Shown: positions 1-39,900 of the stretch, piece by piece
Position numbering within the stretch: the first letter of the stretch is position 1
How the letters are laid out: every line of letters begins with the position of its first letter
Origin: Mytilisepta virgata
Taxonomy: Eukaryota; Mollusca; Bivalvia; Mytilida; Mytilidae
Reading direction: 5' to 3'
DNA length: 64,000 bases
NCBI GenBank assembly: GCA_028015205.1
Contig: CM051516.1
Location: 30,332,230 to 30,396,229, forward strand
Notes under the pieces: model-generated
What the model saw: only the letters and a program-made list of their open reading frames with translations
Told to the model about the DNA's origin: nothing
The model's database searches: none
Translations under genes and position numbers: made by a program

Positions 1-423
1 TTCCTCTATTGTTCCATATACACTGTCCATTTTATCAATGATCTGAACTATATCTGCACTCTCTCCTAATCGCATAACAACTCTTCCTGCTTCGCCCTTC
101 AGTGATCTTCTAATCGCTTGCGTAATAGCTGCCTTTGAATGTGTACTCTCATTTAATAAACACCGTACCTCATATCTCCATAGATCATATGTAGTATAGT
201 CACTTTTCGATACAGTTCCTGAAAAGTTGCTTAATCTAGGAACATATGGTGTATGCACTACTTGGGTAGCCATTCCTGGTTCTTTCTTAATCTCCATTCC
301 TTGTTGTTGAACAAAATTTTTCATCCATTCCTTTAATTCTGCTGGATTTGTTGCTTTTGGAGTAATGTTCATTTCCTCCAATGTTTTTAATAAATCCTTG
401 TATTGTTCTGGAACTTCAGCCAT
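1..423 (-). CDS. PNMA-like Gag, N-terminal part (element 1)
   Basis: The frame is open for 141 codons from an ATG at 423-421 to the window edge. It carries an MAEVPEQYKDLLKTLEEM start, then about residues 80-135 resemble the PNMA/Gag capsid N-domain: a P-R-L-S-N-F-S-G stretch, a YDLWRYEVRCLL core, and an AIRRSLKGEAGRVVMRLGE helix pair. Gag would form the capsid of the element. This type differs clearly from the gag of element 2, which has a classical Ty3 capsid with zinc knuckles. The C-terminus and any zinc knuckle are outside the window. The gap to the upstream SGNH-like ORF is about 150 nt. I am sure this is a retroelement gag; the PNMA-like label is by recognition, not by search. Confidence 0.75.
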   Translation of the reverse strand, partial: MAEVPEQYKDLLKTLEEMNITPKATNPAELKEWMKNFVQQQGMEIKKEPGMATQVVHTPYVPRLSNFSGTVSKSDYTTYDLWRYEVRCLLNESTHSKAAITQAIRRSLKGEAGRVVMRLGESADIVQIIDKMDSVYGTIEE

Positions 424-577: not shown

Positions 578-1330
578 CTACGGTATCACAGTCTCATGCC
601 AACAGTCGTCTATGATTTGTTCCGTTATTTTCCTCACAGCAGCTAAAATTTTAGTTGGGTGTATTCCGTCCTTATAAAGTTGATAATTGTGGTGCACTCT
701 ACGTTGTAATTTATCCCTTTTTGCTCCTTTACGACATTTTGAGACAACAGTCAAATCCGAAGAAAATTTTGGAGAATAGCTATTCAGTTCAGAATTGATG
801 TCCTTTATTTTTCTATTTAGTGTAAAAATTTGTTCCTCCAATTCCTGTTGTTGTTCTTGAAATTGTTCCAATTCCGGATGACGTCGTCGTCTTTCGTTCC
901 AAGCAATAATTGAATAAATAGGCACTTCCAATACTGTTAATTTCGAATATGGATATTGGCTTATAATATTCCTTATTTGTTGAATTTCTTGTATAATTTC
1001 ATTAATCGAATCTGATGAAAATGTTGTTAATGATAAGCAACCTCCTTTGAATTTAGATGTCAAGTTGCAAGTTCCAAACCAAATGTAAAAAGAAATATTT
1101 CCGTATTGTTTATGAAGATATTCTATGTTTTCCTCAAGCCAAATTCTTCCTTCCTTAATTGTTGATCCTCGACTGTATTTCCAAATAATTTGACTTTCCT
1201 GGGTTGTCAATACTTCATCTTTTAAATATGATGCTTTACTGTCGGAAAGTACAATCGGTGTTAAATATTGAAAACCGCGCGTTTGTTTCAACGGACGACG
1301 CAAAAACTTTGTAAGTTTACGGACTGACAT
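578..1330 (-). CDS. SGNH/GDSL-hydrolase-like ORF upstream of gag (element 1)
   Basis: The ORF has 250 codons from the ATG at 1330. The frame stays open back to 1453 (41 more codons, hydrophobic), but no ATG lies there, and the homologue in element 2 starts at the equivalent of 1330. SGNH-type blocks are visible in order: block I TPIVLSDSKASYL (Ser in SDS as nucleophile candidate), a block III-like YIWFGTCNLT, and block V DGIHP with the usual Asp/His pair. The middle is a Gln/Glu-rich predicted coiled stretch (ELEQFQEQQQELEEQIF). It sits between leader and gag, so it is part of the retroelement. It would be a small esterase-like or carbohydrate/lipid-binding protein; enzymatic activity is inference. 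The protein is about a third identical by eye to the one at 29540-30274. Confidence 0.7.
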   Translation of the reverse strand: MSVRKLTKFLRRPLKQTRGFQYLTPIVLSDSKASYLKDEVLTTQESQIIWKYSRGSTIKEGRIWLEENIEYLHKQYGNISFYIWFGTCNLTSKFKGGCLSLTTFSSDSINEIIQEIQQIRNIISQYPYSKLTVLEVPIYSIIAWNERRRRHPELEQFQEQQQELEEQIFTLNRKIKDINSELNSYSPKFSSDLTVVSKCRKGAKRDKLQRRVHHNYQLYKDGIHPTKILAAVRKITEQIIDDCWHETVIP

Positions 1331-2365: not shown

Positions 2366-2383
2366 ACATCTACGTGGGCGCCA
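2366..2383 (-). promoter_or_regulatory. Primer-binding site of element 1
   Basis: The minus strand reads TGGCGCCCACGTAGATGT directly after the LTR end and a 2-nt spacer. The TGG start pairs with a tRNA CCA end, and TGGCGCC is a common Ty3/retroviral PBS opening. I did not identify the primer tRNA. Confidence 0.6.
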
Positions 2384-2386
2384 TTT

Positions 2387-3756
2387 GTAGCCGGGTCTAT
2401 TTTTGGCAATAACAACAAACTCAGCATAGGGTTCTAATTGGATTATATTGATTGTAAATAAACCCTACAATAATAAAACACAGTTATAACAAAACAATAC
2501 ATGTATCACATAGACATTACAACACATAAGACAGAATACTGTTCAAAGGGCAATAACTCAAATTGATTCTGAATAAAGTTTTGAAACAGTTACCGAAAAT
2601 ATCTAACATGTATAAATAAATACGGATTCACTTTAGGCTTTCTAATATTCATTAATTATGAAATAATTAATAATTAACCTATATGAAACTTTGCAATAAT
2701 ATTTCCGAACAAATCATATCTCTTACGAAATGCTACTTATCTAATAAATACTTTATATTAAAAATATACGCAACATCATTCAATTAAGACACATATAGAC
2801 ACACAGAACACAGAAACAAACACTGCTTACCCTATATGTGGTACAAGGGTCCACAACAATTAGGCAGTGCCCCTTATTGTATAAACGTCACTATTGCTCC
2901 TAAATATAATAAAAATAAATATTAAGTACAATGCCCAACTTAATATTTCATTATCTAAATGAAGCAATGCATTTACTATAAAAATATCTTTAAACCATTC
3001 ATTCCAAAATGATTCATTCTATCTCTCAAAACTTTTACTCTGAAATTACCACTTTCATTCAAAGAATAAGATTAAAGGAAAGGATAAGAAAATGTGAATT
3101 GATATACTGTAAATAACTGACCTTCTGATAAACTAAACTATAAGTCTCGGAAGAGATACAAAAAAACTTCTGATCATTTCAAAATCTATCTGAAGTATAT
3201 CCAAGACAAAGGGAATTTAAACCAACCAATAGAAAGTTAAAGAAAAGTATTCACTAAACCAGTCAACCATGAAAGTACATGTATATCAGTAAATCAAAGC
3301 ACTGAAGTACTGTCTACAATTAGTAAATATGGACCAGTAATAAAATAATATAAAGTCAAATATTATCAAATAAATATATCATATTTATTATTCAATAATC
3401 ATACCAGATAAAATTACACACTACTACATACATGTATAACAAAAAGACACAATCACACATCCATTCACTCTACATTTATACATCATGATTTATTAAACAA
3501 AACAGCACTCTTCTCTTGTGGGATTCTCACATTGGACCAAAATGGCTACCATTACCCCCAAAAATATTTTAAAATCTAAATTACAATTTTAATTTTCAAA
3601 TATATTGATTCCCAAGTGCACATCATATTCTTAAATGCAGACAAATGTGTTACAAATTCCATATAATTGTAGTCTCCCAGCACGCTCTTTCTTTGAATGA
3701 ACCCATCTTTCTAATTTAAACATTGAAGAAAAATAGATTTTTTTTAAATATTTCAG
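2387..3756. other. Outer LTR of element 1 and upstream flank of the RNF213-like gene
   Basis: This AT-rich DNA has no ORF. It holds the unmapped remainder of the element 1 LTR. Its right end is probably intron of the RNF213-like gene, because a strong splice acceptor (pyrimidine run, then TTTCAG) ends at 3756. The promoter of the gene is therefore not located. Confidence 0.4.
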
Positions 3757-19067: not shown

Positions 19068-20310
19068 ACGCCCGTCAAAATTTTGATGGGATGTATTATG
19101 GTATACAAATGTCCGACGTCTGTCTGTCCGTCTGTCGCGCCGTCTGTCCGTCGTAAACATGTCGCGCCGTAACTTGAGAACGACTCATCTAAATTTCACG
19201 AAACTTAACATAGTTGTTTCTTATGATGGTCAAACGATCTGTATACTTTGGTGAAAATAAGATTAAAACTTTTTGAGTTACGGGACTTTGTAACTAAAAC
19301 AGAAATGTGTTTTTTTTCACATGTCGTGCCGTATCTCAAAAACGATTTATGATTATTGCATAAAACTTTACACACTTCTTAGTTATATTAATCTAAAGAT
19401 CTGTATACTTATATGGATTTTTGGTTTGGTTATGATTCAAAATTTAATTTTAGAGTTTTTTGAGTTTTTTGTAAAAAAAAAGGGGGGTTTTCACATGTCG
19501 CGCCCTATCTCAAAAACGATTTATGATTATTGCTTAAAACTTTACACACTTTTTAGTTATATGAATCTAAAGATCTGTATACTTTTTGGTGATGATTCAA
19601 AATTTTATTTTAGAGGTTGATTTTTTTGTAAAAAAACAAGGGAGGGCTTTCACATGTCGCGCCGTATCTCAAAAACGATTTATGATTATTGTTTAAAACT
19701 TTACACACTTCTTAGTTATATTAATCTAAAGATCTGTATACTTTTTGGTGATGATTCAAAATTTTATTTTAGAGTGAGTTTTTTGTATAAAAAAAGGGAG
19801 GGTTCACATGTCGCGCCGTATCTCAAAAACGATTTATGATTATTGCATAAAACTTTACACACTTCTTAGTTATTTTTAATCTAAAGATCTATATACTTTT
19901 TGGTGATGACTCAAAATTTTATTTTAGAGTTATTGAGTTTTTTGTAAAAAAAAAAAAGGGGGGGTTTACATGTCCTGGCGTATCTCAAAAAAGATTTATG
20001 ATTATTGCATAAAACTTTACACACTTCTTAGTTATATTAATCTGAAGATCTGTATACTTTTTCGTGATGATTCTTTATTTTATTTTTGAGTTATTGAATT
20101 TTAATATAGCTTTTTGGTAAAAAAGGTAGTCTTTTTTGGTCACATTTCGCGCCGTATCTCTATGCTTAAAAGTTGACACGGTTATGTTTTGCCTGGTTTC
20201 CATATACATCCCACCAGCAGCTCCACTAAATAAACGAGGATTCCAAAAACATTTATTATGTTTTTTTCACAAGACGACGGGCGTATCATGCACTTGTGGC
20301 GCAGCTGTTT
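19068..20310. mobile_element. Non-autonomous repeat with ATACGCCCGTC ends and 155-175-bp tandem array
   Basis: The repeat starts TTTATACGCCCGTCAAAATTT and ends ACGACGGGCGTATCATGCAC, giving imperfect inverted ends. Inside are five or six tandem units, each opening with CATGTCGCGCCGTATCTC, at about 19319, 19493, 19652, 19806, 19966 and a fragment at 20140. Open frames across the array (19321-19620, 19654-19839) are by-products of the repeat. A shorter relative lies at 56738-57310. Confidence 0.65.
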
Positions 20311-21605
20311 ATTCACAAGGTTCAAACCATGTGCTCCATTATACGGAGAAATTTAATTTTAAATATTATTGGATCTAGTTCCCCACTAATCAATGTCTCG
20401 ACTCGTCATAAATGTCACATGATATGTATCACTTTAAAAATTTTTCGTACCAAAACGACAAAGTGCTTCAAATACTGGCTTCAAATATGTTTGCCACTTC
20501 AATTCATGGGTGGGAGGGGGTCTAATCTAATTCCCACAAAAAATGGTCTAATTATGAATTCACATCGTTATAAATACTAAATCACAATTTCATCGATCCT
20601 GATTTTCTGAGCTTACAACCACCCAATTCAGACGTCCTGAAAACGGTCCTGTCGCCCCTCATTATTCTCAATTACTAAAAAGCCCCACATGACTTTGTTG
20701 CAGAAAAAGGTGAGCCCTGTAATCGATACATTACCTATATTTATTTTTACTGACGCTGATTTTTCCCTCAATTTCTTTCTAATTTTAAAAGGCATATATA
20801 AGGGGAAAGTATTAAAATAAATTGGAATGAAATAATGATCAGACATCAGCATGTAAAAAAAATCAAATGCCAGTACTTTCAAAGGGTTTCGATCCTCTGG
20901 TCCCCAAACCCCTCGTTTATATAATAAAACGTATCACAAAATACCAAAATAAATTTGATGCACTGTATGGCCATTTCGTTGACTGCAGTGCTCGAGATCA
21001 AAATATTGGAAAACTGCTTAAAGATAAAATGATGAAATTATAAGCACAACCATCAAAAATCAAAACAATTAAAACAAATAGGTATCCAAACTCAGCTTAG
21101 GGTTACCTCTGCATCAAAAGAAAGAGCCTTAGAAATTTCTGGTTATTTTTGTCAAATTTTAAATGGAAAATTTAAAGGTATTTGAGTAATGAATATATAC
21201 ACTTCCCACACAAGGCTGCTTCAGCCCAGGATCTGCCCTGTGAATTTCCCTTACTAGTAATATATTTTCACTCAAATGCAACATTTTATTTTTTTAATTT
21301 AGTCTACAAAGAAAGTTGCAAAACAATTTCAGCATGCACTTTAAAATTCTGTTTCTGCCAGCAGATAGTCCAAATAATTATGCCTCTGAGTAGGTTATTT
21401 ATAATTTTTATGCAACGTCTTTGATGGTCTAAAAAAAGTCCAAATGATAAATGGCCTCAGGATTATCTGGACTAGCTAGCAAGATGTGTATTCTCTTGGT
21501 TGGTTGGTAGTTTGTGCCTGCAGCATCACCAGCATGTAGATGTACTAACCATACAGCTCTGTCAGCTTTATACACTCGGTATGCACCTCCTCATATTGGC
21601 TATCC
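20311..21605. other. Intron 6 before element 2; dispersed repeat fragment
   Basis: The segment 20954-21122 (TTGATGCACTGTATGGCCA onward) is a near copy of 15399-15570. Nothing else is recognised up to the LTR. Confidence 0.5.
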
Positions 21606-21819
21606 TGTTATGTCTATGTGGGCTTCATTACATTCTGGATTTGGGAATTAGCGTTAGAAACAATCACAAAGTTACATCAGCCATAAACACGTTTTTATTT
21701 AAGAGCCAACTAATAATTGATACAATTCTGGACATCACTGAAGTAATTACGGAACACCGTATAAGTAACAAAACAGTAACATAAACTGAATTACACATAT
21801 ATAACCGTATATTATAACA
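21606..21819 (-). repeat. 3' LTR of element 2 (214 bp)
   Basis: The LTR has 6-bp inverted ends TGTTAT/ATAACA. It is identical by eye to the copy at 30501-30714. It carries (minus strand) a TATATATG-like stretch near its U3 start that could serve as a TATA element. Confidence 0.93.
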
Positions 21820-21834
21820 TCCCCCCGCCAGAAA
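21820..21834 (-). other. Polypurine tract of element 2
   Basis: On the minus strand a G-rich run (GGCGGGGGGA) directly precedes the 3' LTR, the expected plus-strand primer of reverse transcription. Confidence 0.6.
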
Positions 21835-22870
21835 AAAAAATTCACAATGAATTTTTACCATATGTGGAATTCAGTGTAACCATCTAAATTAATCAGTCAT
21901 GTATGTTACAACTCTCTTATATCTCATGAGCATCTATATTAAACTCACTCTACCTCTCGAGAAAAATTCAAAATTTCTCGAACATGGAACATTTTTGGAA
22001 AATATGGCGGAATTAGCATTTTGTAACACATTACAGAGTATAACATGAATGAAAAATCTTGTTTGTCATGAACGTGGCATTTTATATAAAACAATTATGA
22101 AATCACCAGAGGCCTTACTCTTATTTTGTAGATAATTGCTAAAAGTGATGAAAAACAAATTCGCACAACCACTCTCACACAGAACTATACAATTGGAGAC
22201 CAGCTCACAACACACTCACTCACACTAGTTTTCAAAGTAACCACTGACAGCAATACTACCAAGGTTATTTGTGATTAACATAAATAAACCACTGACAGAA
22301 ATTCATACAACCTCATTGTGTACGATATGCATCAATATTCCTATAATCCAATTTTCAGGGGGAAACCATACTATCTTTCAAAGTACAAGTTAACAGCTTA
22401 TGTAGTTTTCAAACAAATCACTTAACATGAAAAAAAAAAAATGAACCGTCACGGGCTTAAATGCAAAGTTCTTAGCATGTAACTATATAAACTAAAACAA
22501 AAGCAAAAACAAAAAAATATAATGTGCTTCCTTGGCAACATTAGCTTGCTTTTAAACTATGTCTTTTAGAAAAATCATATTACCTATAGTTTATCTTTCA
22601 TTTCTCATCAAACAAAACTTAATTCTCAAATCATCGCTTATGCATGAAAATCAGTTTTACATTAAAATTTTCAAAGACGACTTAAGCGAATTGCGAATTA
22701 CTATATGTACAATATCATACAAATATGGAAAAAAAATGATAAGTAATGCCGGAATAAGATGCATAATAAAAAAAACAGTATGAAAATTGAGTAAAGTACA
22801 AATACTATATCTTTGTCATTCGCGTTTCTAGACGCTTCACTTGTACAGACTAGCATGTCGATGTAGTACC
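21835..22870. other. 3' untranslated region of element 2
   Basis: This is about 1.0 kb between the second palindrome cluster and the polypurine tract. No conserved ORF was found; frames such as 22559-22783 and 22701-22886 look like chance. Unusually long for a Ty3 element, so an eroded extra gene is possible. Confidence 0.5.
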
Positions 22871-22871
22871 A

Positions 22872-23046
22872 TGAGATTAATCTCACAGATAAGCCGGTTT
22901 ATAAGGAATGCATTATACTGTGGTTTCACTCTGACAAGTAAACGCATCTTCAAAGATATAATTTCTAAAATATAGATCACAACTATGCCATGAGATAAAT
23001 CTCACAGGCTAGATTCTACGGTATAACATCATGAGATAAATTCTCA
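22872..23046. repeat. 3' cluster of the TGAGAT-nn-ATCTCA palindrome (3 copies)
   Basis: Copies at 22872-22885 (TGAGATTAATCTCA), 22991-23004 (TGAGATAAATCTCA) and 23032-23046 (one extra T). The same motif occurs six times at 29204-29473. Confidence 0.85.
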
Positions 23047-23117
23047 CAGAATATTTTCGAACGTTACTGACAATAAGAACGAATTTTCATAAAAGTTGCA
23101 TAATATTCATGAAATAA

Positions 23118-23483
23118 TTAATTAATAGTTGGTGGAGATCGTGATTGTAATTTGGCCTTTGCTTTTGGTCCTAATTGATGACTCTCGAGCCAGACGGCAT
23201 GTTGTGCTGGTTCATCGACGATATGTGCTAGATACGACGTTTTACCATTCACCGTTTTCTGTGCTAAAAATCTTTTAACTTTTGGTTTAGTGGAAGGATC
23301 ATCCGAAATATCAAGTTCACTGTGAAAAACAAAGTTATCATCACGAAATCGTGCAGGCAATTGTCTCGTACGTTTAGGACGTTGTATATTTGCGAGGTCA
23401 TTGTCCTTGTTTGCAGTATTCGTGTCGTTATATATAATTAATTCCAGATACGGTATTATCCGAAACGATTTCTTTCTGGTCAT
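23118..23483 (-). CDS. Chromodomain-like C-terminal ORF of element 2
   Basis: This 121-codon ORF overlaps the last 56 nt of pol in the +1 frame. It has an RPKRTRQLPARFRD segment, typical of the end of retroelement polyproteins. Then comes a chromodomain-like fold signature: VKRFLAQKTVNGKTSYLAHI followed by a Trp in HAVWLES, compared with the usual R-I-L-x-K-R...G-x-x-x-Y-L-V-K-W-K...W-E-P. The aromatic cage looks incomplete. In chromoviruses such a domain targets integration to marked chromatin. Whether it is made by a second frameshift, by reinitiation at the ATG at 23483, or is cut off by a 1-nt indel cannot be told. Confidence 0.6.
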   Translation of the reverse strand: MTRKKSFRIIPYLELIIYNDTNTANKDNDLANIQRPKRTRQLPARFRDDNFVFHSELDISDDPSTKPKVKRFLAQKTVNGKTSYLAHIVDEPAQHAVWLESHQLGPKAKAKLQSRSPPTIN

Positions 23484-26400
23484 TTTCTGTCAAAGCATTA
23501 TTTTCATTCGGACTACTCGTATCTTCTTCTGGTAGATCTTGTTCGTTTATGGATGCACTGTCATCTATTTCTTGCGTGCGCACGGAGTCCAAAAAATATC
23601 TCGAAGGATGCGGAATTCTAACATAAGCAGCCTTTAGTCTGTTAACATGAACTGGTTGTGTTAATAATTTGTTTGTTTTGGGGTCCTTCAAATAATACAT
23701 GTGTGGGCTGTTAACTTTTGAAATGACATAAGGACCTGCAAATTTGTTCTTAAATTTTTGTCCCGGTCCTGTGGGATCTTTCGACAGATAGACATAGTCA
23801 CTTTCTTGAAATGAAATGTTTGGTATTTTGTCTTTGTTGACTCTTTCTAACATCCTAAGTTTCGAATTCAGAGAAGTTTTTTCGACTTCCTTACGTATTA
23901 TGTCTAATTTCTCCACATGTTGTTTCAAATACGCGTGACAGTCTTTAGGCACAGAAGAAAAGTCAGTATCTTTAATATGGAAGGACAACGGAAATTTCGG
24001 TCTTGTTCCGAATACTATTTCAAACGGCGAAAATTTCAAACTTGCATTTGGTGTGTTGTTTATTGAAAAAATAATTGCAGGTAAAATATCTTCCCAACGT
24101 TTACCTTTCTCAATAAATGGAGTAATTCTCTCTGCTAGAGTTCTATGGGGTCTCTCACACGCACCGAGACAGTGGTGTGTGAAACTAGGAGTGTATTCTT
24201 GTTGAATGGCTAATAAGCGACACACCTCACGAATGCATTTTCCAACAAATTCCGAACCTTGGTCACTGATGAGCGTTTTGCATACTCCAAATTGTGTAAT
24301 AAGTTTAAATAAGACTTGTGCTACTGTCATATTATCGGAATTAGGAATAGGTTCTGCGAATAGATATTTGCTAAATAAATCTACTGCTGTGAATATATAA
24401 GTATTCCCTGTGCGTGAGACTAGAATTGGTCCATAAAGGTCCATTTCCCAAACTTCAAATGGAGCAGCTGGGGTAGGAAATGAAACAATTCCCGCTTTCG
24501 TTTTCAAAGTCGTATTCTTTCGACTCTGACATTCATGACATGAGCGTATGTAGTCAGAAATTTTGTGAGACAACTGCGGAAAAAAATACTGTTCTTGAAT
24601 TAAATCTATTGTAGTTTGTATTCCGCTATGTCCTCCTAATGGCGAATCATGATAAAGTTTGATAATTTCTTTCACAGCGACTTCTGGGACAACTAACTGA
24701 TACGAACTCATAAGTTTTGTTCTTGTCGATTTAGCTTTCCTCACGTGAAATAGCAAGTTATTTATCATCATGAATTCTGGAGATAAGAGAAGTAGTTTTC
24801 TAGAGTCTTTTTGTAATTTTGGAAATATATCGTGTTCTAGGTACTGAATTAATACTTTACAATAAGAGTCTTTTCTCTGCATATCATGAATACTTTCGAC
24901 ACTGAAATCCGATTGACGAAATAGTTCGATAGATTCCATAAATTCAGCATTAGAATCAACATCGGCTGTACTTTCTGCTTCAACCGATAACTCACTTCTC
25001 AAATTACTTACAGATTCGTCTACAGTTTCTATATTCGAAGCTGTATGAATAGTGCGCATAGAACTGTCATCCAAATTTACATTTATTTCCACTTGTGTAC
25101 TAGAGTCATTTTTCTCACTTATGTGGTTTTCCACTTTTGACTTTGAATCACTTTTATCATATCGAGTAAGTCGATTTTTGTCACAACGTCGTTCTCTCGG
25201 TAATTCAGAAAGTAGCTTCTTTCCAAATTTCTGCGGTCGTCGTCTGCGTTTTGTGTCCTCGACTAAATCCTCGGTATCTGCATCATATACGTCATTTTCA
25301 TTTAAATGTAATTGTTTATGCACAGATAAGTCACCAATTTGAAAATTTGGAATAGCCGTCGGAATGCAAATATTATTTACTTGTAAATTTCCCTCATTGT
25401 TAGAATCTGAATGACATAACAAACTTGAAAACTTTTTTCCGTTCGGCAAAATTATATTTCCTACATTTTCATTTTCATACGGGAAGTATGGATCGTCTTC
25501 CTCTGGACTTTGAAACTGATTGTCTTGATTTATGATACATCTAGACAGAGCGTCTGGTACTTGCATTTCTTTTGCTGGTTTGTATTTGAGTTCGAAATTA
25601 TGTTGTTGTAAAATTGCAATCCAGCGTTCATAAATGGCCCCTTTCAGTTGGTTTGCAAATAACGGTTTCAGAGCTTGGTGATCACATTCCACGATGAACG
25701 GTTTGGTGCGTAAATAAGATGAGCATTCTAAAATTGCAGTGACCATCCCAAGAAGCTCTAATTTTGTGGGACCGTAAGATTTCTGCCATTTGCTGAGTGC
25801 TTTCGATCCAAATCGGATAACTCTAACGGTTTCAATATCGTCAGATTTGACAAATTGGTAAAGCATGTAGCCAATTCCTTTTGATGAAGTATCAACTGAT
25901 AAATGGAATGGTAGATTGTAATCGGGAAAAGCCAGTACTGGAGAATTAATCAACAAGTGTTTAATTCGGTCAAATGCGGTTTGTTGCTCAGATGTCCATG
26001 TAAATCGAACAAATTTCTTGAGAAGCTTAGTTAACGGTGCAATTTCTGCACTAAAATTCGGTATATATTTCCGAAACCAGTTTAGTAGGCCGATTAAACG
26101 GCGCAATTCCTTCACGGAAGTTGGTGCAGGATATTCTTCGATGGCTTTGATGCGATCTGGAGGCGGTTCAATCCCTTTGTTAGATATCTTATGTCCCAAA
26201 TAAATACAAGAAGTCTGTGCAAACGAACACTTTTTCGGACCTAATTTTAAGCCTGCTGTTTTCAGACGTGTAAATACCTCGGTTAGATCTTGAATATGCT
26301 GATCGAAGGTTTCTGAAGCTATGAGAATGTCGTCAAGGTAGCATAAACATGATTTAAAGGTAAGACCGTTTAAAACTTTATCCATCAAAAGTTGAAATGA

Positions 26401-27936
26401 TGCAGGGGATGAACTGAGTCCCATAGGTAAACGTAAGAATTTGAATGTTCCAAAACATGTATTGAAGGCTGTATAACGCTGACTATCTTTTGAAATTGGC
26501 AACTGGAAAAATCCCGAGCTCAAGTCTATAGATGTTAAGAAATTTGGCTTTTTAGTTGAAAAAGATTCTGTCAGATCTTGCAAATCAGGAATAGCATAAC
26601 TAAACTGTTGCGTTTGGGAGTTTAGATAACGAAAATCACAACAGAAACGAAATTTCGACAAGCTATTCTCCTGTGACGTAGTGTCATTTGTATTAGTTTT
26701 ATGTACTCTTTTAGAGACAAGCACAATCGGGCTTGTAATAGGGACATCTTCTGTTTCTTCCACTGGAGATATGACACCTTGACGTAAAAGTTCATCTAAG
26801 TGATGTCTCAAAATTTCCTTCTTCTCAGGAGTTAGCCGGTACGATCTTTGATTTTTCGGTTTAAAATCTGGTTTCATCGATATTTTATGCTGTACTACTT
26901 CCGTATATCCTAATTCGGGGTTTTCCGCTGTAACAAACAAAGCTTTGTGAGAATGCAAAAAATTAAGCAAAGTCGATCGTTGTTTTTCTGTCAGATGATC
27001 AGGAATATTGAAATAAGACGTAAACTTAGGGTCGTGTGTATCTCTATCACACATATTATCCGACAACTGAACGTTCTGTACATAATGAGTGTCCGTATTT
27101 TCACAAATAGGTACAAATACGTGATCTGCAGTAAAAGGTTCAAAATCTGCAAAAATCTGTCCTTTATTCAAAACAACATCATCGTTGGTAAAATTCAAAA
27201 TTTTAACTGGTATTAATTTATCGCGGTTGACTGTAACCACCACTTTTGCCATCAAAAGTCCGTATTTTTCAATATTTCTACTGCAACATATTCCTTGCAT
27301 TCCGTATTGGGCATTTCCATTTATTTTCCCCCAAATTAACATTTCAGTATTTGGTGGAATTGATACAGGTTTTGACGTACTAACTTTAAAAGTTTTAGAA
27401 CGAACACTTTGACTATTAAAATCTAGAACTATTTTCTTAGAAAATAAGTAAGCTGTTCCTAAAATCAATGGATGTGATGTCTGAGCTAAAATATACACAC
27501 GTATCCAGTGTTTTCCTTGCGGAACAGTAATCTTAATATCTGATGTGCCATACACATGAATTGACTGATTATTCGCCAAAGTAATTTTGTCTGTAACAGG
27601 ACTAAATTTTGATTTATAGGAGTCAGGTATTGTATTGTAAAACTGCTGTGATATAACGTTTATTGAACTTCCTGTATCGATTAATGCGGAAATTTCCAAA
27701 TTCGCTATTTTCAAGGGCATATAAAGAAATTTAGAAAAATTCTCAGTTTCATCATTGCTTGAATCATCTGTTGGTAAAACATTTGTGTTTGCTAGAAGTT
27801 TATTTTGGGAACGTTCAAAAGATTCGCAGTTCATGTCGGCATGTTGATATTGAGGCTCTTGATTTATTGACCATCCCGGGGTTCTTGCCTTGTGAGCCCC
27901 GGGCTCTTGCGGTTTCCCGGAATATATTTTGTACAT
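23428..27936 (-). CDS. pol: Pol polyprotein: protease, RT, RNase H, integrase (element 2)
   Basis: The ORF has 1,502 codons from the first ATG, but it is probably entered by -1 frameshifting from gag. Domains in order: aspartic protease with LIDTGSS at about 85-91; reverse transcriptase with YLDD near 532; Ty3-type RNase H with VDTSSKGIGYML near 678 and a later EL-E/CDHQAL set; a 250-residue charged spacer; integrase zinc finger (H..H near 1094-1101, CHEC near 1133); the catalytic core with MDLYG, SDQGSEF and ACERPHR, where D and E are separated by exactly 35 residues; and a GPY/F module (FAGPYVIS) near 1400. All catalytic residues I looked for are present and there are no internal stops. Confidence 0.95.
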   Translation of the reverse strand: MYKIYSGKPQEPGAHKARTPGWSINQEPQYQHADMNCESFERSQNKLLANTNVLPTDDSSNDETENFSKFLYMPLKIANLEISALIDTGSSINVISQQFYNTIPDSYKSKFSPVTDKITLANNQSIHVYGTSDIKITVPQGKHWIRVYILAQTSHPLILGTAYLFSKKIVLDFNSQSVRSKTFKVSTSKPVSIPPNTEMLIWGKINGNAQYGMQGICCSRNIEKYGLLMAKVVVTVNRDKLIPVKILNFTNDDVVLNKGQIFADFEPFTADHVFVPICENTDTHYVQNVQLSDNMCDRDTHDPKFTSYFNIPDHLTEKQRSTLLNFLHSHKALFVTAENPELGYTEVVQHKISMKPDFKPKNQRSYRLTPEKKEILRHHLDELLRQGVISPVEETEDVPITSPIVLVSKRVHKTNTNDTTSQENSLSKFRFCCDFRYLNSQTQQFSYAIPDLQDLTESFSTKKPNFLTSIDLSSGFFQLPISKDSQRYTAFNTCFGTFKFLRLPMGLSSSPASFQLLMDKVLNGLTFKSCLCYLDDILIASETFDQHIQDLTEVFTRLKTAGLKLGPKKCSFAQTSCIYLGHKISNKGIEPPPDRIKAIEEYPAPTSVKELRRLIGLLNWFRKYIPNFSAEIAPLTKLLKKFVRFTWTSEQQTAFDRIKHLLINSPVLAFPDYNLPFHLSVDTSSKGIGYMLYQFVKSDDIETVRVIRFGSKALSKWQKSYGPTKLELLGMVTAILECSSYLRTKPFIVECDHQALKPLFANQLKGAIYERWIAILQQHNFELKYKPAKEMQVPDALSRCIINQDNQFQSPEEDDPYFPYENENVGNIILPNGKKFSSLLCHSDSNNEGNLQVNNICIPTAIPNFQIGDLSVHKQLHLNENDVYDADTEDLVEDTKRRRRPQKFGKKLLSELPRERRCDKNRLTRYDKSDSKSKVENHISEKNDSSTQVEINVNLDDSSMRTIHTASNIETVDESVSNLRSELSVEAESTADVDSNAEFMESIELFRQSDFSVESIHDMQRKDSYCKVLIQYLEHDIFPKLQKDSRKLLLLSPEFMMINNLLFHVRKAKSTRTKLMSSYQLVVPEVAVKEIIKLYHDSPLGGHSGIQTTIDLIQEQYFFPQLSHKISDYIRSCHECQSRKNTTLKTKAGIVSFPTPAAPFEVWEMDLYGPILVSRTGNTYIFTAVDLFSKYLFAEPIPNSDNMTVAQVLFKLITQFGVCKTLISDQGSEFVGKCIREVCRLLAIQQEYTPSFTHHCLGACERPHRTLAERITPFIEKGKRWEDILPAIIFSINNTPNASLKFSPFEIVFGTRPKFPLSFHIKDTDFSSVPKDCHAYLKQHVEKLDIIRKEVEKTSLNSKLRMLERVNKDKIPNISFQESDYVYLSKDPTGPGQKFKNKFAGPYVISKVNSPHMYYLKDPKTNKLLTQPVHVNRLKAAYVRIPHPSRYFLDSVRTQEIDDSASINEQDLPEEDTSSPNENNALTENDQKEIVSDNTVSGINYI

Positions 27937-29153
27937 TGGGTAACATTATGTCCGGTCTGTCCACAAATACGACACTGAAGTGATGAATCTATATTTCCCT
28001 GTTCATTCCAATTACAGGCACGAGCAAAATGACCTGGTGCCCGACATTTTCGACATAAACCTCGGTCAGAAGCGGTAACTTGAGGAGGGTCTCGATGTTG
28101 GGTACGTGAAAATCGACTGTGAGATATATCAGTAATTTCTCGCTTCTGTTTAAAATCAGTAGCGAGTTGTGCTACAGTTTCGGTGAGTGAATTTATCTGT
28201 CCTTGCAAGTCGGTAACAAATGATGGTTTATCCATATCTTTTTCTCCAAACAAACCAACAGATTTATCCTTTGGCTTAACGGCAGCTACTAAATGTTTAT
28301 CGTCTATCCTATACCCGTAAGCTTCACCCATTTTGGCGGCAGTTAAAGCACTAGCGCTATCGGCATGATTACCTGCCCTAACAAAAAATGCTAGCTGATC
28401 TGGTAGGCCTTTAATAAATTTTATCAATATTTCGTGATCATGTTTACGCAAAATGGTAGCCTTTTCCAGGAGTTGTGCATAATAACCATCAATCGACTGT
28501 CCCTTTGACAGCGTCAAAGTTTCAAAAACCTCGCTTTCAAGCAGAACAGTTGGGCTACGATAGTCCACATCAATATATTGTTTGTTAAATATTTCTACAA
28601 AATCAGGCCAATACCTTTTATGATCAGACGTAAGTTTATTGAACCACGTTAAAGCTGGTCCGCAAAGATGGAGATGAAAAGCAGCTATTTTTCGAGCGTG
28701 TTCCTCGGGCAATATATTGTGCAAAATCGCATAAGATTCAAATTCGGCTAGAAATTGCGACGAATTTTCATGAGGGTATCCTCCGTATTTTCTACAGGTT
28801 GCTAATTTTTCCATGTTTTTATTTACAACTCTATGTTGTATACTAGTAGAAATATTTGGCTGATTGGTGCTAGAAAAATTTTGTGAATGCAGATTTTTGG
28901 AGGAATCTGTGCAATTAAAGTGTAGTGTTGTAGCTAATAACGGGCCATCAGGCGTTTTGGGACTTTGGACGCAAGGTATATCAAATGAAGCATCACAATT
29001 ACGATTTGGAGTTGATTCTAGCAAATGTCTAATATCAGGTTCTAATTCCTTTGAAACATTGTTATATAGAGAAAAATCATGGTCAAATATTTGGTTGTTT
29101 TCTAAAAAATAATCGGTAAGTATTGAATCTGTTTCACTCTCAGATGACGACAT
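27864..29153 (-). CDS. gag: Gag of element 2 with two zinc knuckles
   Basis: The ORF has 429 codons from an ATG at 29153. The middle (about 130-260) is a Ty3-type capsid: YGGYPHENSSQFLAEFESYA, then LHLCGPALTWFNKL, then the GQSIDGYY region. Two CCHC knuckles follow near 366 and 386 (CRKCRAPGHFARAC and CRICGQTGHNVTQC, both C-x2-C-x4-H-x4-C). It overlaps pol by 73 nt. A short acidic N-terminal region precedes the capsid. It forms the virus-like particle and binds the RNA genome. It is not the PNMA-like type of element 1. Confidence 0.95.
   Translation of the reverse strand: MSSSESETDSILTDYFLENNQIFDHDFSLYNNVSKELEPDIRHLLESTPNRNCDASFDIPCVQSPKTPDGPLLATTLHFNCTDSSKNLHSQNFSSTNQPNISTSIQHRVVNKNMEKLATCRKYGGYPHENSSQFLAEFESYAILHNILPEEHARKIAAFHLHLCGPALTWFNKLTSDHKRYWPDFVEIFNKQYIDVDYRSPTVLLESEVFETLTLSKGQSIDGYYAQLLEKATILRKHDHEILIKFIKGLPDQLAFFVRAGNHADSASALTAAKMGEAYGYRIDDKHLVAAVKPKDKSVGLFGEKDMDKPSFVTDLQGQINSLTETVAQLATDFKQKREITDISHSRFSRTQHRDPPQVTASDRGLCRKCRAPGHFARACNWNEQGNIDSSLQCRICGQTGHNVTQCTKYIPGNRKSPGLTRQEPRDGQ
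27875..27918 (-). promoter_or_regulatory. -1 ribosomal frameshift signal at the gag-pol junction
   Basis: On the minus strand GGGAAAC (27918-27912) fits the X-XXY-YYZ slippery rule, with GGA AAC as the in-frame gag codons. After an 8-nt spacer comes a 7-bp all-GC stem, CCCGGGG (27903-27897) with CCCCGGG (27881-27875), around a 15-nt loop. pol lies in the -1 frame and is open across this point. GGGAAAC is a known retroviral slippery heptamer. Confidence 0.88.
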
Positions 29154-29203
29154 TAATTCAATAAATCAGTAAGGATTGTTCGTACTTATTTATAACATAG
29201 TAA

Positions 29204-29473
29204 TGAGATGAATCTCACATACATGTACAATTTCCGGTTTATATCATAGTAATGAGATGAATCTCACATACAATTGTAAATTCACACAGACAGAAACACG
29301 GGTAGAAATGAGATAAATCTCACATCCTACTCACTGAACAATAGAAATTCAATATGAGATGAATCTCACATACGTGTACAGTTTCTGGTTTATATCATAG
29401 TAATGAGATGAATCTCACATACAATTTTAAATTCACACAGACAGAAACACGGGTAGAAATGAGATAAATCTCA
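29204..29473. repeat. 5' cluster of the TGAGAT-nn-ATCTCA palindrome (6 copies)
   Basis: Copies start at 29204, 29253, 29309, 29355, 29404 and 29460; the centre is GA or AA. The cluster lies between the SGNH-like ORF stop and the gag start and includes a tandem duplication of period 151 bp (about 29224-29374 and 29375-29505). Each copy can form a 6-bp hairpin in RNA or bind a dimeric protein in DNA. Confidence 0.9.
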
Positions 29474-29539
29474 CATCCTACTCACTAAACAATAGAAATT
29501 TCAATATGTTAAATGTTTAACCTAACTTTATTTTTCTTT

Positions 29540-30274
29540 TCACTGACAATCTTCAATTATTGTTAAACAAAGACGAATTAGCCATAAAAGTGCCAAATCC
29601 GGATGGGGATGCACTCCATCTAAATAAAGACCATAATTGTAGGAATAAACAGGTTGTTTATTTCGATGTTTTCGAACTTTCTCTAAATCTAGTCCGAAAT
29701 CTGAAGAATGTCCTCTAAGTACAAGATTGGTTTCTCTAATAAATTTGTTTACTTCATGTATTTGAGCTTCCAAAAGTTTATCGTGAGCTCGAAACTGATC
29801 TGGTTCAAGGTGTCCTTTGTACAAGTTCCATAAATATACGGAGAAGTAAGGTAACTCGAGAAAAACAAGCTTAATTGTAGGAAAATTTGCAATAAATTTG
29901 TACAGTTTTGTGTAAATTTCACAAACGTGTTGAACCCTCTCGTTGTTTTCGGAACGCAACCTTATAAATTTGCCTGTCTTTTTCGTCAGATCACACGTTC
30001 CGAGCCATACGTATAACGTAAAATGTCTGGACGCAAGTTCAACAAATTTTTGTTCCAAGTTCGATTGTAACCAATTAAATTGTCTTTCGGTGTCCGCCCC
30101 TTTTTCCCACCACCAAAATATTTTATTTTCTGGATGTCTAGACCATTTAACAGCTTGTTCCAAATATTTTGCTTTACTGTCAGATAACACGATTGGTATC
30201 GTACGCAAAAGGGGGGCTTGCTGCAGTCTTTCGTCTAAATTTCGAATTTGTTTTCCTACTCGAGAAAGGCTCAT
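29540..30274 (-). CDS. SGNH/GDSL-hydrolase-like ORF upstream of gag (element 2)
   Basis: This 244-codon ORF opens MSLSRVGKQIRNLDERLQQ. Blocks: IPIVLSDSKAKYL (nucleophile Ser candidate in SDS, block I), YVWLGTCDLT (block III-like; the usual Asn of GxND is Cys here), and GLYLDGVHPHPDL (block V Asp/His). The middle region has LVFLELPYFSVYLW and a helical stretch. It shares block order and about a third of residues with the ORF at 578-1330, including SDSKA-YL, W-GTC-LT and DG-HP. It lies 226 nt inside the 5' LTR and 386 nt before gag. No signal peptide or membrane segment. It may be an esterase, or a binding protein keeping the fold; activity is inference. Confidence 0.75.
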   Translation of the reverse strand: MSLSRVGKQIRNLDERLQQAPLLRTIPIVLSDSKAKYLEQAVKWSRHPENKIFWWWEKGADTERQFNWLQSNLEQKFVELASRHFTLYVWLGTCDLTKKTGKFIRLRSENNERVQHVCEIYTKLYKFIANFPTIKLVFLELPYFSVYLWNLYKGHLEPDQFRAHDKLLEAQIHEVNKFIRETNLVLRGHSSDFGLDLEKVRKHRNKQPVYSYNYGLYLDGVHPHPDLALLWLIRLCLTIIEDCQ

Positions 30275-30482
30275 TTATTCGGAATAGCTGTTCATTCAGG
30301 TAAACAAATGTCTAAATTTGGAAAAATAATAACAGTTCCTTGAAATATTTGACGAAAAAGTAAACCACGTGGTGATGCAATAGGTTGTCTTTATGCACTT
30401 CCACGGCGCTATCGCTTCATATTGTGGCTCAATACATCAAATTACTCGGTACAAAAAGTTTATCGTATATCCAATAATCTGT

Positions 30483-30500
30483 TTTTAGGGTTCTCCACCA
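30483..30500 (-). promoter_or_regulatory. Primer-binding site of element 2
   Basis: The minus strand continues TGGTGGAGAACCC straight from the LTR end with no spacer. It would pair with a tRNA ending GGGTTCTCCACCA. I could not assign this to a common tRNA. Confidence 0.55.
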
Positions 30501-30714
30501 TGTTATGTCTATGTGGGCTTCATTACATTCTGGATTTGGGAATTAGCGTTAGAAACAATCACAAAGTTACATCAGCCATAAACACGTTTTTATTTAAGAG
30601 CCAACTAATAATTGATACAATTCTGGACATCACTGAAGTAATTACGGAACACCGTATAAGTAACAAAACAGTAACATAAACTGAATTACACATATATAAC
30701 CGTATATTATAACA
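30501..30714 (-). repeat. 5' LTR of element 2 (214 bp)
   Basis: Identical by eye over 214 bp to 21606-21819. It is followed on the + strand by the ATCC target duplicate at 30715-30718. Confidence 0.93.
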
Positions 30715-30718
30715 ATCC

Positions 30719-32454: not shown

Positions 32455-33650
32455 TAATTGTCTCACCTGCGATGAAAAGGCGAGATATAGGTATTACTTT
32501 CTGGAGGTGACGGCGTAAACTTTTCTAAAACTTTAATAACTTTGCTCATATAATATTTATAATTGAGGTTTATGGTCCACAGATAGTTTATCGTATAAGG
32601 TTTGCCGCAGTTTACTTGTCTTGTGACCCTGACCTCATTTTCATGGTTCACTGACTTCATAAACATAAATGTAAAATCTGCATCCAGTGGTTAAATTTTC
32701 TCAGCAACTGTAATACCTAGGCCAACCATATTTGGTCTATAGATAGTTCTTAGTGGGTACATGCCAGCTGATACCTGGCTTGGGACCTTGACCTCAATTT
32801 CATGCTTGAGTGACTTTGTCACATTTTCGTGGTTAAGTCCATTTCTCAGCAACTATAATACCTAGACCCACCATATTTGGTCAATAGATAATTCTTGGTG
32901 GGTACATGTTAGTCTGACACCTGTATTTTGACCTTGACCTCAATTTCATGCTTGAGTGACCTGCATCACATTTTCCTAGTTAAGTCCAATTCTCAGCAAC
33001 TGTAATGCCTAGACCCACCGCCAGTCTGACACTTGTCTCTGGACCTTGACCTCAATTTCATGGTTGAATGACCTGCCCATTTTTCAGCAACTGTAATACC
33101 TAGACCCACCGTATTTGGTATATTGATAGTTCTCGTTGGGTACATTGTTGACACTTGTCCATGGACCTTGACCTCAATTTCATGGATGGGTGACTTTCAT
33201 CCCAGTTTTTTTATTAAGTCCATATTTTAGCAACTGTCATACCTAGACCCACTATATTTGGTCAATAGATAGTTCTTAGTGGGTACATGTCGGTATAACA
33301 CCTGCCATTTGACCTTGACCTTAATTTCATGGGTCACATTTTCGTGATTAAGTCCATTTCTTAGCAACTGTAATACCTAAACCAACCATATCTGGTCAAT
33401 AGATAGTTCTTAGTGGGTACATGCCAGTCTGACACCTGTCTCTGGACCTTGACCTCAATTTCTTGCCTTAGTGACTTGTGTTTAGGCTTGAATGACATGC
33501 ATGAGGTTTTTCAGACACATTATCACCTGACCATTACTATTTCTTTTAACGCATTTTTCCTTTGACTTGCAATGTGGGGTATCAGATAATCATTATTCTT
33601 TGTCCATGTGCATACTCAGGCAAGACATTTAGTGTGTCCATTCTTGTTTT
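32455..33650. mobile_element. Non-autonomous repeat with about 140-bp tandem units
   Basis: Seven or so imperfect units carry CTCAGCAACTGTAATACCTA, a CCACCATATTTGGTC core, GATAGTTCTTAGTGGGTACATG and TTGACCTCAATTTCATG. It ends near a TGTGTCCATTCTTGTTTT phrase that also ends the repeat at 42955-43590, so the two are related. No coding capacity. Confidence 0.65.
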
Positions 33651-36904: not shown

Positions 36905-39900
36905 TTAGCTCACCTGGCCGTCATCCGTAAACTTTCACATATTGATCATCTCCTCTAAAACCAATGGAGCAAATTTAACGAAACTTTACAGGAATGATGT
37001 ATGGAAGGTCCGTTACTAAGATTGCGGAAATTTTTCCGATCCGCCAAAAAACATGGCTGCCAGAGCAGGACAGTTTAACATTGGACCCTATGGGAAAACA
37101 GGTTAAAGTTTATTTCCTCTGAAACCACATGGGCAAATTTAACCAAACTTTACAGGAATGATGTATGAAAGGTCCTTTACTAAGAGTGCCGAAATTTTAC
37201 CGATCAGCCATAAAACATGGCTGCCAGTGCAGGACATAGTTTAACGTTGGACCCTATGGGAAAACATGTTAAAGTTCATCTTTTCTAAAACTACTTTAGC
37301 AAATTTAACCAAACTTTACAGGAATGTTGTATGGAAGGTCCTTTACTAAGATTGCCGAAATTTTTCTGATCCGCCAAAAAACATGGCTGCCAGAGCAGGA
37401 CATAGTTTAACATTGGACACTATGGGAAAACATGTTAAAGTTCATCTCCTCTGAAACTACTTGAGCAAATTTAACCAAACTTTACAGGATTGATGTATGG
37501 AAGGTCCTTTACTAAGATTGCCAAAGTTTTTCCGATCCGCCATAAAACATGGCTACCAGCGCAGGACATAGTTTAACATTGGACCCTATGGGAAAACATG
37601 TTAAAGTTCATCTCCTCTGAAACTACTTGAGCAAATTTAACCAAACTTTACAGGAATGATGTATGTTAGGTCCTTTACTAAGTTTGCCAAAATTTGTCCG
37701 ATCCGCAGTAAAACATGGCTGCCAGCGCAGGACATAGTTTAACATTGGACCCTATGGGAAAACATGTTAAAGTTCATCTTCTCTGAAACTACTTGAGCAA
37801 ATTTAACCAAACTTTACAGGAATGATGTATGGAAGAACCTTTACAAAGATTGCAGAAATTTTTCCGATCTGCCAAAAAACATGGCTGCAAGCACAGGACA
37901 TAGTTTAACATTGGACCCTATGGGAAAATATGTTAAGGATCATCTTCTCTGAACCTACTAAATAAAATTAAACCAAACTTTACAGGAATGATGCATGGAA
38001 TCTCCCTCACAAAGATTAATAAATTTTTTTGCGATCTGTTTAAAAACATGGCCGCCAGTGCAGGACATAGTTTAACATTGGACCCTATTTCAGATGATAT
38101 GTTTTAGAATGTTTTAATGTTTTAGCATGCCCTAAGTCACATATTATCATATTAATAAATATTTTACATCCAATAAATCTTCATAAATATTTTTAGAAGC
38201 ACCATATTTAAATTTGTGAAGATTTAATTTTGTCGGAGTCGAGGCTGTTGTCTTTAATTTAGTACATGAGAATTTGCCGTTTAATTTTCACAACTTCCTG
38301 TAACTGAGGTAGGAGTAACAGCTGCAATTAACTTGTTTAAAAAAATATTACATTTAAGACACCAAATATAGCAAAACAATATGATTTAGTCCTTTTCATG
38401 TTCTTTAGCATTACAAACTATGTTTATGGTGCCTGTCAGTCAGAGATCCCACTTGTACAAGTAAATCGATTTTTACTCATTTGGGTAAAAAAAAATTTAC
38501 GCGATTGCGTAAATGGTTGATCGAAGAGTTTTCCCGAGATCGACAATTTTTTTGAAATTGCCGCTTATTGACGTATCAGAGCTCTCCCTAAATGCATTGG
38601 AGAGAATCAGAACATCACAGCCATCGAAGATATCACTTGGAGTTTTGAAAGGTAAATATGAAAGTGTTTTTATTGAAAGATTTTAATCGTAATTTGTGTT
38701 TTTTGGGCTAGTTTTCAAGAGATTGGTTTGTTGAAGAAAACTTTTATCTGGAAATACGGAGAGTTTTCTGATAAAACAGAATGGCTAAGCAGTCTATTTT
38801 ATTATATAACGAAGAAGCGCACTGCGGTTATGGGTTGACGCACGTCATTTTAAGTTGACCACTGTTCCTTAATATTTACGCATGCAAGTAAAAAAAAATT
38901 TCTTTTCATTTTTAAGACATTTTGGGGAGACAACTCATGCGTCCTTGTATCTTGTTTCGTGAAGCTACCGTTATCGACATTTATTGGGGACAACAATCAG
39001 GATGGGAACATGTCTCCGAACTGTCGGGACAGGGGCTCCAATCATGAGTTTTATATTTTTATGGATAGAAAAATGGTTTCATACCTAAAGCATCTAAAGT
39101 GTTCATATTAAAAGTAATCAAAAAATGGGGAGGGGGATAGGGGGGGGGCACATGGGCTTGTACTAAAAATGGGGACTTTTTGAGGTAGAAAAGCTTGTAA
39201 GGTAAGAAAAAAAACAAAAAAACAAAAAAAAACAAAACAAAACAAAAAAAAAACAAGCAACAAGCACCTTCGTGTGGGGGAGTAGGGGATATATTTAAAA
39301 AAAAAATGGTTAGTCTGTTAGTTGAAAAAGCCTGTTAGGGAAATTTTAATCTTTCATTTCTTTTCAATATGGAGCCTAGAATTTTTTGTGCACCAAAAAA
39401 TTTCTCAAAGATGCCTGAAACACATACATTGACATACATATAAAGGTATGGAACGTTTATCTTTCAGCCAATTCTTGATTATCAAATTATTCTAACACTG
39501 GTTGAGAGATGTGAAAAATGCACGTAAAATTAGAGAAATAAAAAAATAATGCCTAACGTTGGGGTACCCAAATCGCCCATGGTTAAATATCAGCCCCATT
39601 GACAAAACTCAGGAAAAACAATTACATTTTGTTAAAGAAGGTTATTTTTAATAAATTTCTGTAAAATGAGTTCATACATTTTATGCTGCGTTAAAAAATA
39701 AAGTACCACGTGTGATTTGGGTACCTGTGGTCGATTTGGATACCCCGACGTTATACCTTACAACTCTGACTTATTTAGGCATTTCAGCAGAAACACAAGT
39801 ATTTTTTTTGGCTGAGAAGTAAATTTATTTGAGATTCTACTATTGTCAAAATTGTGCAAGGATTTCATGAACTGTCAAACAATCATTTGTATAAAGAGTG

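Follow-up and report, generated by a model that had tools for sequence, protein, structure and literature searches.

The 64,000-nucleotide stretch of the Mytilisepta virgata genome analysed here (contig CM051516.1, positions 30,332,230 to 30,396,229; called the window in what follows) contains a complete Ty3 retrotransposon whose first open reading frame (ORF), situated between the primer binding site (PBS) and gag, encodes an SGNH-like protein of 244 amino acids. Judging from sequence comparisons and gene order, this ORF is very probably a bona fide accessory gene of retroelements and part of a mobile gene family that occurs both in long terminal repeat (LTR) elements and in long interspersed nuclear elements (LINEs), and has passed between them at least once. 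The first-pass annotation of an intact 244-codon ORF within a complete element flanked by target site duplications (TSD) was confirmed. The features of the element are the following:

21606-30714, minus strand: Ty3 element, complete, 9,109 bp
30715..30718 (beside the 5' LTR) and 21602-21605: TSD ATCC, flanking both LTRs
30501..30714, minus strand: 5' LTR, 214 bp, identical to 21606-21819
30488..30500, minus strand: PBS TGGTGGAGAACCC, abutting the 5' LTR
29540..30274, minus strand: accessory ORF, SGNH-like, 244 amino acids from ATG to stop, first ORF of the element, in the PBS-to-gag interval
29203..29508: leader between the accessory ORF and gag, with two 151-bp tandem units and six palindromes TGAGATNNATCTCA
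27864..29153, minus strand: gag, 429 amino acids, Retrotrans_gag (E 9e-8) and two CCHC motifs
23428..27936, minus strand: pol, 1502 amino acids, protease, reverse transcriptase (RT), RNase H and integrase, overlapping gag in another frame
21820..21829, minus strand: G-rich polypurine tract, abutting the 3' LTR
21606..21819, minus strand: 3' LTR, 214 bp, identical to 30501-30714

The LTRs, TSD, PBS, polypurine tract, gag with CCHC motifs and the order of the pol domains are those of a Ty3 (Metaviridae) element. The pol product matches the RVT_1, RNase H and integrase families of Pfam, and its protease matches are below the cut-off. Since the two LTRs are identical, the insertion must be recent. 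A chance origin of the accessory ORF was rejected: the longest ATG-initiated ORF in 40 first-order Markov sequences of 64 kb has 160 amino acids versus 244 in the window.

A tblastn search of the window with this ORF returned one other match, at 1330-578 (33% identity, E 1e-26), which scores 302 against the window ORF while the best of 2,000 shuffles reaches 65. This homolog belongs to a different Ty3 element:

2386..3428, minus strand: 5' LTR of the second element, approximately 1,043 bp as judged from its edges
2370..2383, minus strand: PBS-like site TGGCGCCCACG of the second element
578..1330, minus strand: second homolog ORF, 250 amino acids, 33% identical
1..423, minus strand: start of the second-element gag, PNMA-like, continuing into the flanking locus L112, where CCHC, protease and an interrupted pol follow

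The second ORF is placed between the PBS-like site and gag, and 82 bp at the outer edge of the 5' LTR recur with 98.8% identity in L112, at the inner edge of the 3' LTR. The gag of this element has a zinc knuckle, and its match to the PNMA family (PF14893, E 5e-4) is below the cut-off. The RT-RNase H regions of the two window elements are 36% identical. Between their accessory ORFs, mismatches are most frequent at the third codon position (0.53, 0.41 and 0.63 at the three positions in order), and the 80 identical residues show 46 third-position changes versus 8 at positions one and two. Outside the window, the second-element pol is interrupted by an open frame for an RT on the opposite strand (L112:3503-4420, plus strand; RVT_1 E 3e-4, below the cut-off), which is presumably Penelope-like.

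The host genome (1.03 Gb) was then searched for further copies. It contains at least 151 ORF matches, a lower bound given by 150 scored out of 287 candidates. Fifty-one copies were examined, namely the best 30, 20 hand-picked for diversity from the remainder and the one carried by the second element of the window. The ORF is followed, in the same orientation, by a Ty3 gag in 30 of them, by a PNMA-like gag in four, by a LINE gene in six and by a BEL/Pao gag in one, so that 41 of the 51 copies have a recognisable retroelement gene downstream; only 7 of the 51 were followed past 1.5 kb, and the 10 with an unrecognised neighbour are not thereby shown to be partnerless. The LINE assignments are based on endonuclease and RT in L133-L135, RT in L137 and PHD fingers in L134 and L138, and that of L121 rests on a single ORF1 match. 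The BEL/Pao assignment comes from DUF1759, integrase and DUF5641; we take the combination of DUF1759 and DUF5641, and the gag-like ORF of L127, to be of BEL/Pao type. At six loci measured, 131-524 bp separate the ORF stop from the next start, and in 27 of 30 loci (L082-L111) a PBS like that of the window element precedes the ORF by 120-396 bp. Several families contain many equal-scoring copies, for instance eight of the L117 kind, and the ORF therefore moves with its element. Relatives of the ORF were found neither among phages or plasmids nor in bacterial and archaeal genomes, and viral contigs yielded none for the ORF and none for the RT-RNase H piece.

The same association was seen from the side of gag. 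With the gag of the window element as query, 103 matches were found in the genome. They correspond to 90 loci once 13 are set aside, of which 11 are second fragments of loci already counted and two are short, separate matches (C10:76068075 and C12:54707623), both preceded by an ORF match. The accessory ORF is located within 3 kb upstream on the same strand in 59 of the 90 loci, and in 43 of 58 when only gag matches longer than 800 bp are considered, with 176-1,421 bp between the ORF and the gag match; this count used 115 of the 150 ORF matches and may be an undercount. Families with the ORF ahead of gag share 38-62% ORF identity. The earlier description of a separate gene ahead of gag in Ty3 elements holds in that the arrangement is common there, but it is too narrow, because the ORF also heads LINEs and one BEL/Pao element.

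The divergence between families points to long-term selection. In 12 chosen within-group pairs, the proportion of nonsynonymous differences (pN) is 0.22-0.37 versus 0.73-0.90 for synonymous ones (pS), and the two window ORFs give pN 0.46 and pS 0.76. Synonymous sites are saturated between families and amino acids are constrained. Together with the position of the ORF ahead of gag in most loci, this constraint upholds its first-pass designation as an accessory gene.

The ORF has mostly travelled together with gag, since the identities of both genes are correlated in 11 Ty3 loci (Mantel r 0.42, a value equalled or exceeded in 18 of 5,000 permutations). After removal of near-copies from the 45 ORFs with 215 or more amino acids, 27 representatives were used for a tree, in which L114, L127 and L113 form long branches. 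The ORFs of Ty3-gag elements are near one another, and their grouping in one clade is not rejected by the approximately unbiased test (p-AU 0.44). The ORF of the second window element falls among LINE ORFs (97/92), apart from other PNMA-gag ORFs. The test rejects the monophyly of PNMA-gag ORFs (p-AU 1.7e-62) and, weakly, that of LINE ORFs (p-AU 0.03). The simplest reading of this topology is that the ORF was transferred at least once between an LTR element and a LINE.

With respect to the encoded protein, the window ORF contains LSDSK at residues 30-34, GTCDLT at 92-97 and DGVHP at 219-223, and the order of SGNH blocks I, III and V recognised in the first-pass annotation is borne out. Motif conservation was counted on the 45 ORFs of at least 215 amino acids, near-copies included. 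In block I, Asp32 is present in 44 and Ser33 in 43 ORFs, a GDS-like motif whose first residue is Ser in 31, Thr in 10, Gly in two, Ala in one and a gap in one. The block II oxyanion Gly59 is found in 40 ORFs and aligns with the block II Gly of Escherichia coli TesA. Gly92 is present in all 45, as are Asp219 and His222, which form the block V D-x-x-H motif, and Ser145, Asn150 and Asn176, which are outside the classical blocks. Among 25 diverse rows, Asp32, Ser33, Gly92, Thr93, Asp219, Gly220 and His222 are invariant.

The exception is the oxyanion-hole Asn of block III (GxND), which is replaced by Cys in 43 of the 45 ORFs and by Tyr in one, Asn being present in L107 only. This locus (G000:C37:4882374-4883063), the sole GTND-bearing member, has no Pfam matches other than GDSL families (E 0.013 and 0.029, below the cut-off), and no retroelement gene was recognised in the approximately 6.5 kb downstream (L107, L139). 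This member is possibly a host gene, or else a relic near the ancestral state.

The family can be loosely aligned with the SGNH hydrolase TesA (TAP). An hhalign comparison of the 25-row family alignment with a TesA alignment gave a score of 28.5, while five controls (TesA reversed, and two other E. coli families read forwards and reversed) scored 9.2-13.5 and 60 column shuffles did not exceed 22.8. With loosened settings, the alignment covers 187 columns and four of the SGNH blocks line up: GDS (block I), the Gly of block II, GGND/GTCD (block III) and DGIHP (block V). The family carries Cys instead of the block III Asn, however, and has a longer segment between blocks III and V. In Pfam, no family other than PF13472 and PF00657 is hit by more than one of the 25 members (two each; best E 0.0074 and 0.013). 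Most likely, therefore, the product is a divergent member of the SGNH superfamily, as far as its sequence tells, with an intact Ser-Asp-His triad, the block II Gly and Cys at the position of the oxyanion-hole Asn; an SGNH fold is considered likely. Because the defining block III Asn is Cys, the protein is not filed as a canonical SGNH hydrolase. The first-pass label of SGNH-esterase-like thus stands for the motif order and the loose profile-profile alignment, but "esterase" is not established.

The explanation that we favour on balance is that of an accessory gene family with an SGNH-like product acting by acyl hydrolysis or binding at membranes. The ORF would be translated first, from the 5' end of the full-length genomic RNA. 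Its product could hydrolyse acyl esters or thioesters slowly, or bind acyl groups, and so enable the ribonucleoprotein or particle of the element to engage cell membranes, to leave them or to cross them while it is being assembled, transported or released. A membrane step is one that LTR elements and LINEs could share, and this role follows those proposed for ZfL2-1 (PMC3905857) and for bdelloid elements (PMC5408684). The near fixation of Cys argues against simple decay. A more daring version, rather unlikely, is that a Cys-variant SGNH clade ("SGCH") is a freely exchanged first-gene module of Ty3 elements with two gag types, BEL/Pao elements and PHD-type LINEs. The Cys would then provide a new chemistry, for instance the transfer of acyl groups or their removal from lipid-modified proteins, at a membrane step that these elements have in common despite their different replication routes.

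The best-surviving alternative keeps the SGNH fold and dispenses with catalysis: like Oskar, the product would bind RNA, lipid or Gag, or serve as a scaffold for them. The replacement of the oxyanion Asn by Cys in 43 of 45 ORFs speaks for it, and Oskar and insect PAF-AH homologs are described in PMC3905857 as SGNH proteins without hydrolytic activity. The three invariant residues outside the classical blocks also suggest another conserved surface. However, a pure binder need not keep the triad, whose Asp and His are invariant and whose Ser is nearly so despite saturated synonymous sites, and we regard this alternative as fairly unlikely.

According to a second alternative, the product belongs to another alpha/beta protein family with look-alike motifs. 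Several results weigh against the SGNH assignment and favour this possibility. By default, the hhalign comparison with TesA covers 64 columns without block V at a reported probability of 15.7%, and the TesA alignment used is narrow (Neff 1.4). An 11-row alignment of the family matched TesA over 9 columns of block V only, and hhalign in global mode gave no result. None of the 25 members searched passed the Pfam cut-off, the window ORF has no SGNH or GDSL match in Pfam, NCBIfam or PHROGs, and sequence searches of solved structures in the PDB retrieved no SGNH chain. The AlphaFold models, made before the 25-row alignment existed, were poor (mean pLDDT 44.4 and 45.6), and the structure matches of the first of them were led by Rag GTPases and AAA proteins. 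Foldseek gave no match at E up to 0.001 for a low-confidence single-sequence model, and no SGNH enzyme was prominent in a second structural comparison of a low-confidence model. Set against the conserved motif order and the TesA score, a non-SGNH protein appears improbable.

The last alternative is that a host gene was captured once by the window Ty3 element and is carried there as a chance passenger. It is favoured by three close relatives of the window element (gag 94, 94 and 88% identical), which lack the ORF, and by some related gag lineages that have the PBS without it. The three relatives also weigh against the accessory-gene reading, as does the variation with gag identity: 34 of 38 loci at 40-45% and 18 of 25 at 45-60% have the ORF, but only three of seven at 60% or more and four of 20 at 30-40%. 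Constraint is also weaker in nine recent pairs (omega 0.22-0.56), which would be expected if some copies are decaying; four L117 pairs at dS above 1.3 give omega 0.58-0.62.

The region upstream of gag was inspected in 8 of the 31 loci without an ORF match. The three ORF-less copies of the same family retain LTR and leader pieces 87-97% identical to those of the window element, and join leader position 421 to 1184-1187, so that the ORF (441-1172) is cleanly removed; two of them have about 1.4 kb of other sequence inside the leader. Splicing was rejected as the source of these copies because no GT...AG pair was apparent at the junctions, and they are therefore read as deletions. The shared breakpoint points to one loss, and since more distant families keep the ORF, one deletion common to the three copies is the simplest reading. 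The ORF product is perhaps supplied to them in trans.

More distant Ty3 gag lineages were also observed. L143, L144 and L145 share the PBS TGGTGGAGA, the same as that of the window element, and have no accessory ORF before gag. The locus L146 shows neither a PBS nor the ORF, and L147 carries a truncated ORF (residues 147-239).

The refuting test suggested by the first-pass annotation, copies of the same family without the ORF, gave a mixed outcome: three such copies exist, but distant families keep the ORF under constraint. Some copies can therefore do without it, yet it is no chance passenger. The accessory ORF is common and old, but not indispensable. In spite of the three deleted copies and of the L143-L145 lineages, a chance passenger is extremely improbable, being contradicted by the diversity of partners, the proportion of gag loci preceded by the ORF and its long-term constraint.

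Other features of the window were noted. The palindrome TGAGATNNATCTCA occurs at 8 sites, all of them in the Ty3 element 21606-30714: six at 29204-29474, in the two 151-bp tandem units between the ORF and gag, and two at 22872-23005, downstream of pol. Allowing up to one mismatch, it has 16 two-strand matches versus at most 2 in any of 100 shuffles. These palindromes may form a cluster with a regulatory or insulator-like function, or serve as a signal for RNA dimerisation. A 123-codon open frame at 23121-23489 (minus strand), with no match in Pfam, overlaps the end of pol in another frame and extends past it. Outside the Ty3 element, tandem or diverged repeat arrays are found at 36946-38088, 19157-20160 and 32613-33478.

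SGNH-type proteins have been described in other retroelements. In bdelloid rotifers, a GDSL/SGNH ORF3 is present in Vesta LTR retrotransposons and in Athena Penelope-like Terminons (PMC5408684). As in M. virgata, this is an SGNH-type accessory ORF in retrovirus-like LTR elements, of a type common to retroelement classes. However, the bdelloid ORF is 3' whereas the ORF described here precedes gag, its invariant residues in LTR elements are reported to be intact instead of showing the Asn to Cys change, and the partners differ, being Ty3, BEL/Pao and LINEs here. In the CR1, L2 and RTEX LINEs, for instance ZfL2-1, the esterase (type IV) is ORF1 (PMC3905857, PMC4120745), and within the Jockey superfamily an esterase ORF1 is reported only for the vertebrate L2 and CR1 groups (PMC4120745). 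These elements resemble the present ones in having an SGNH-type protein as first ORF, and the LINEs found here also have PHD fingers, but in M. virgata it is a separate ORF before the PHD-type ORF and is also present in LTR elements. ZfL2-1 has Asn195 in the oxyanion hole and the transposon-specific residues H191 and S228 (PMC3905857). Its spacing is close to that of the family (Ser-Gly 22 versus 26 here; Ser-Asn 52 versus Ser-Cys/Asn 61 here), although the segment before Asp-His is longer here.

Ngaro elements also contain an SGNH ORF, which differs in being located after the tyrosine recombinase gene (PMC9210276). The Drosophila MDG1 group offers a likeness in position, since its sORF1 and sORF2 are selection-conserved Ty3 accessory genes upstream of gag (PMC11952523). 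These are short, about 110 and 70 amino acids versus 244 here, and sORF2 is a FAST-like transmembrane protein and not enzyme-like. The main text of a paper on bivalve transposons (PMC10294476) contains neither "esterase" nor "SGNH". The first-pass suggestion of a new accessory gene of LTR retrotransposons has thus to be narrowed: SGNH/GDSL ORFs in LTR elements were already known from bdelloid Vesta ORF3 (PMC5408684), but a Cys-variant family ahead of gag appears to be new. Within the open-licence literature, Repbase and subscription papers being outside this scope, novelty appears to extend to the pre-gag SGNH-like gene, the nearly family-wide Asn-to-Cys change and the sharing among Ty3, BEL/Pao and LINEs in one genome.

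Why SGNH-type proteins are present in unrelated retroelements has been an open question since the CR1 esterase was described. The M. virgata genome allows one gene family to be followed through Ty3, BEL/Pao and LINE elements, and it offers both copies that naturally lack the ORF and an active-site change close to fixation. What these elements share, and what the enzyme-like protein does in them, thereby become testable questions. Retroelements of different orders also share, and at least once appear to have swapped, an accessory gene within one host.
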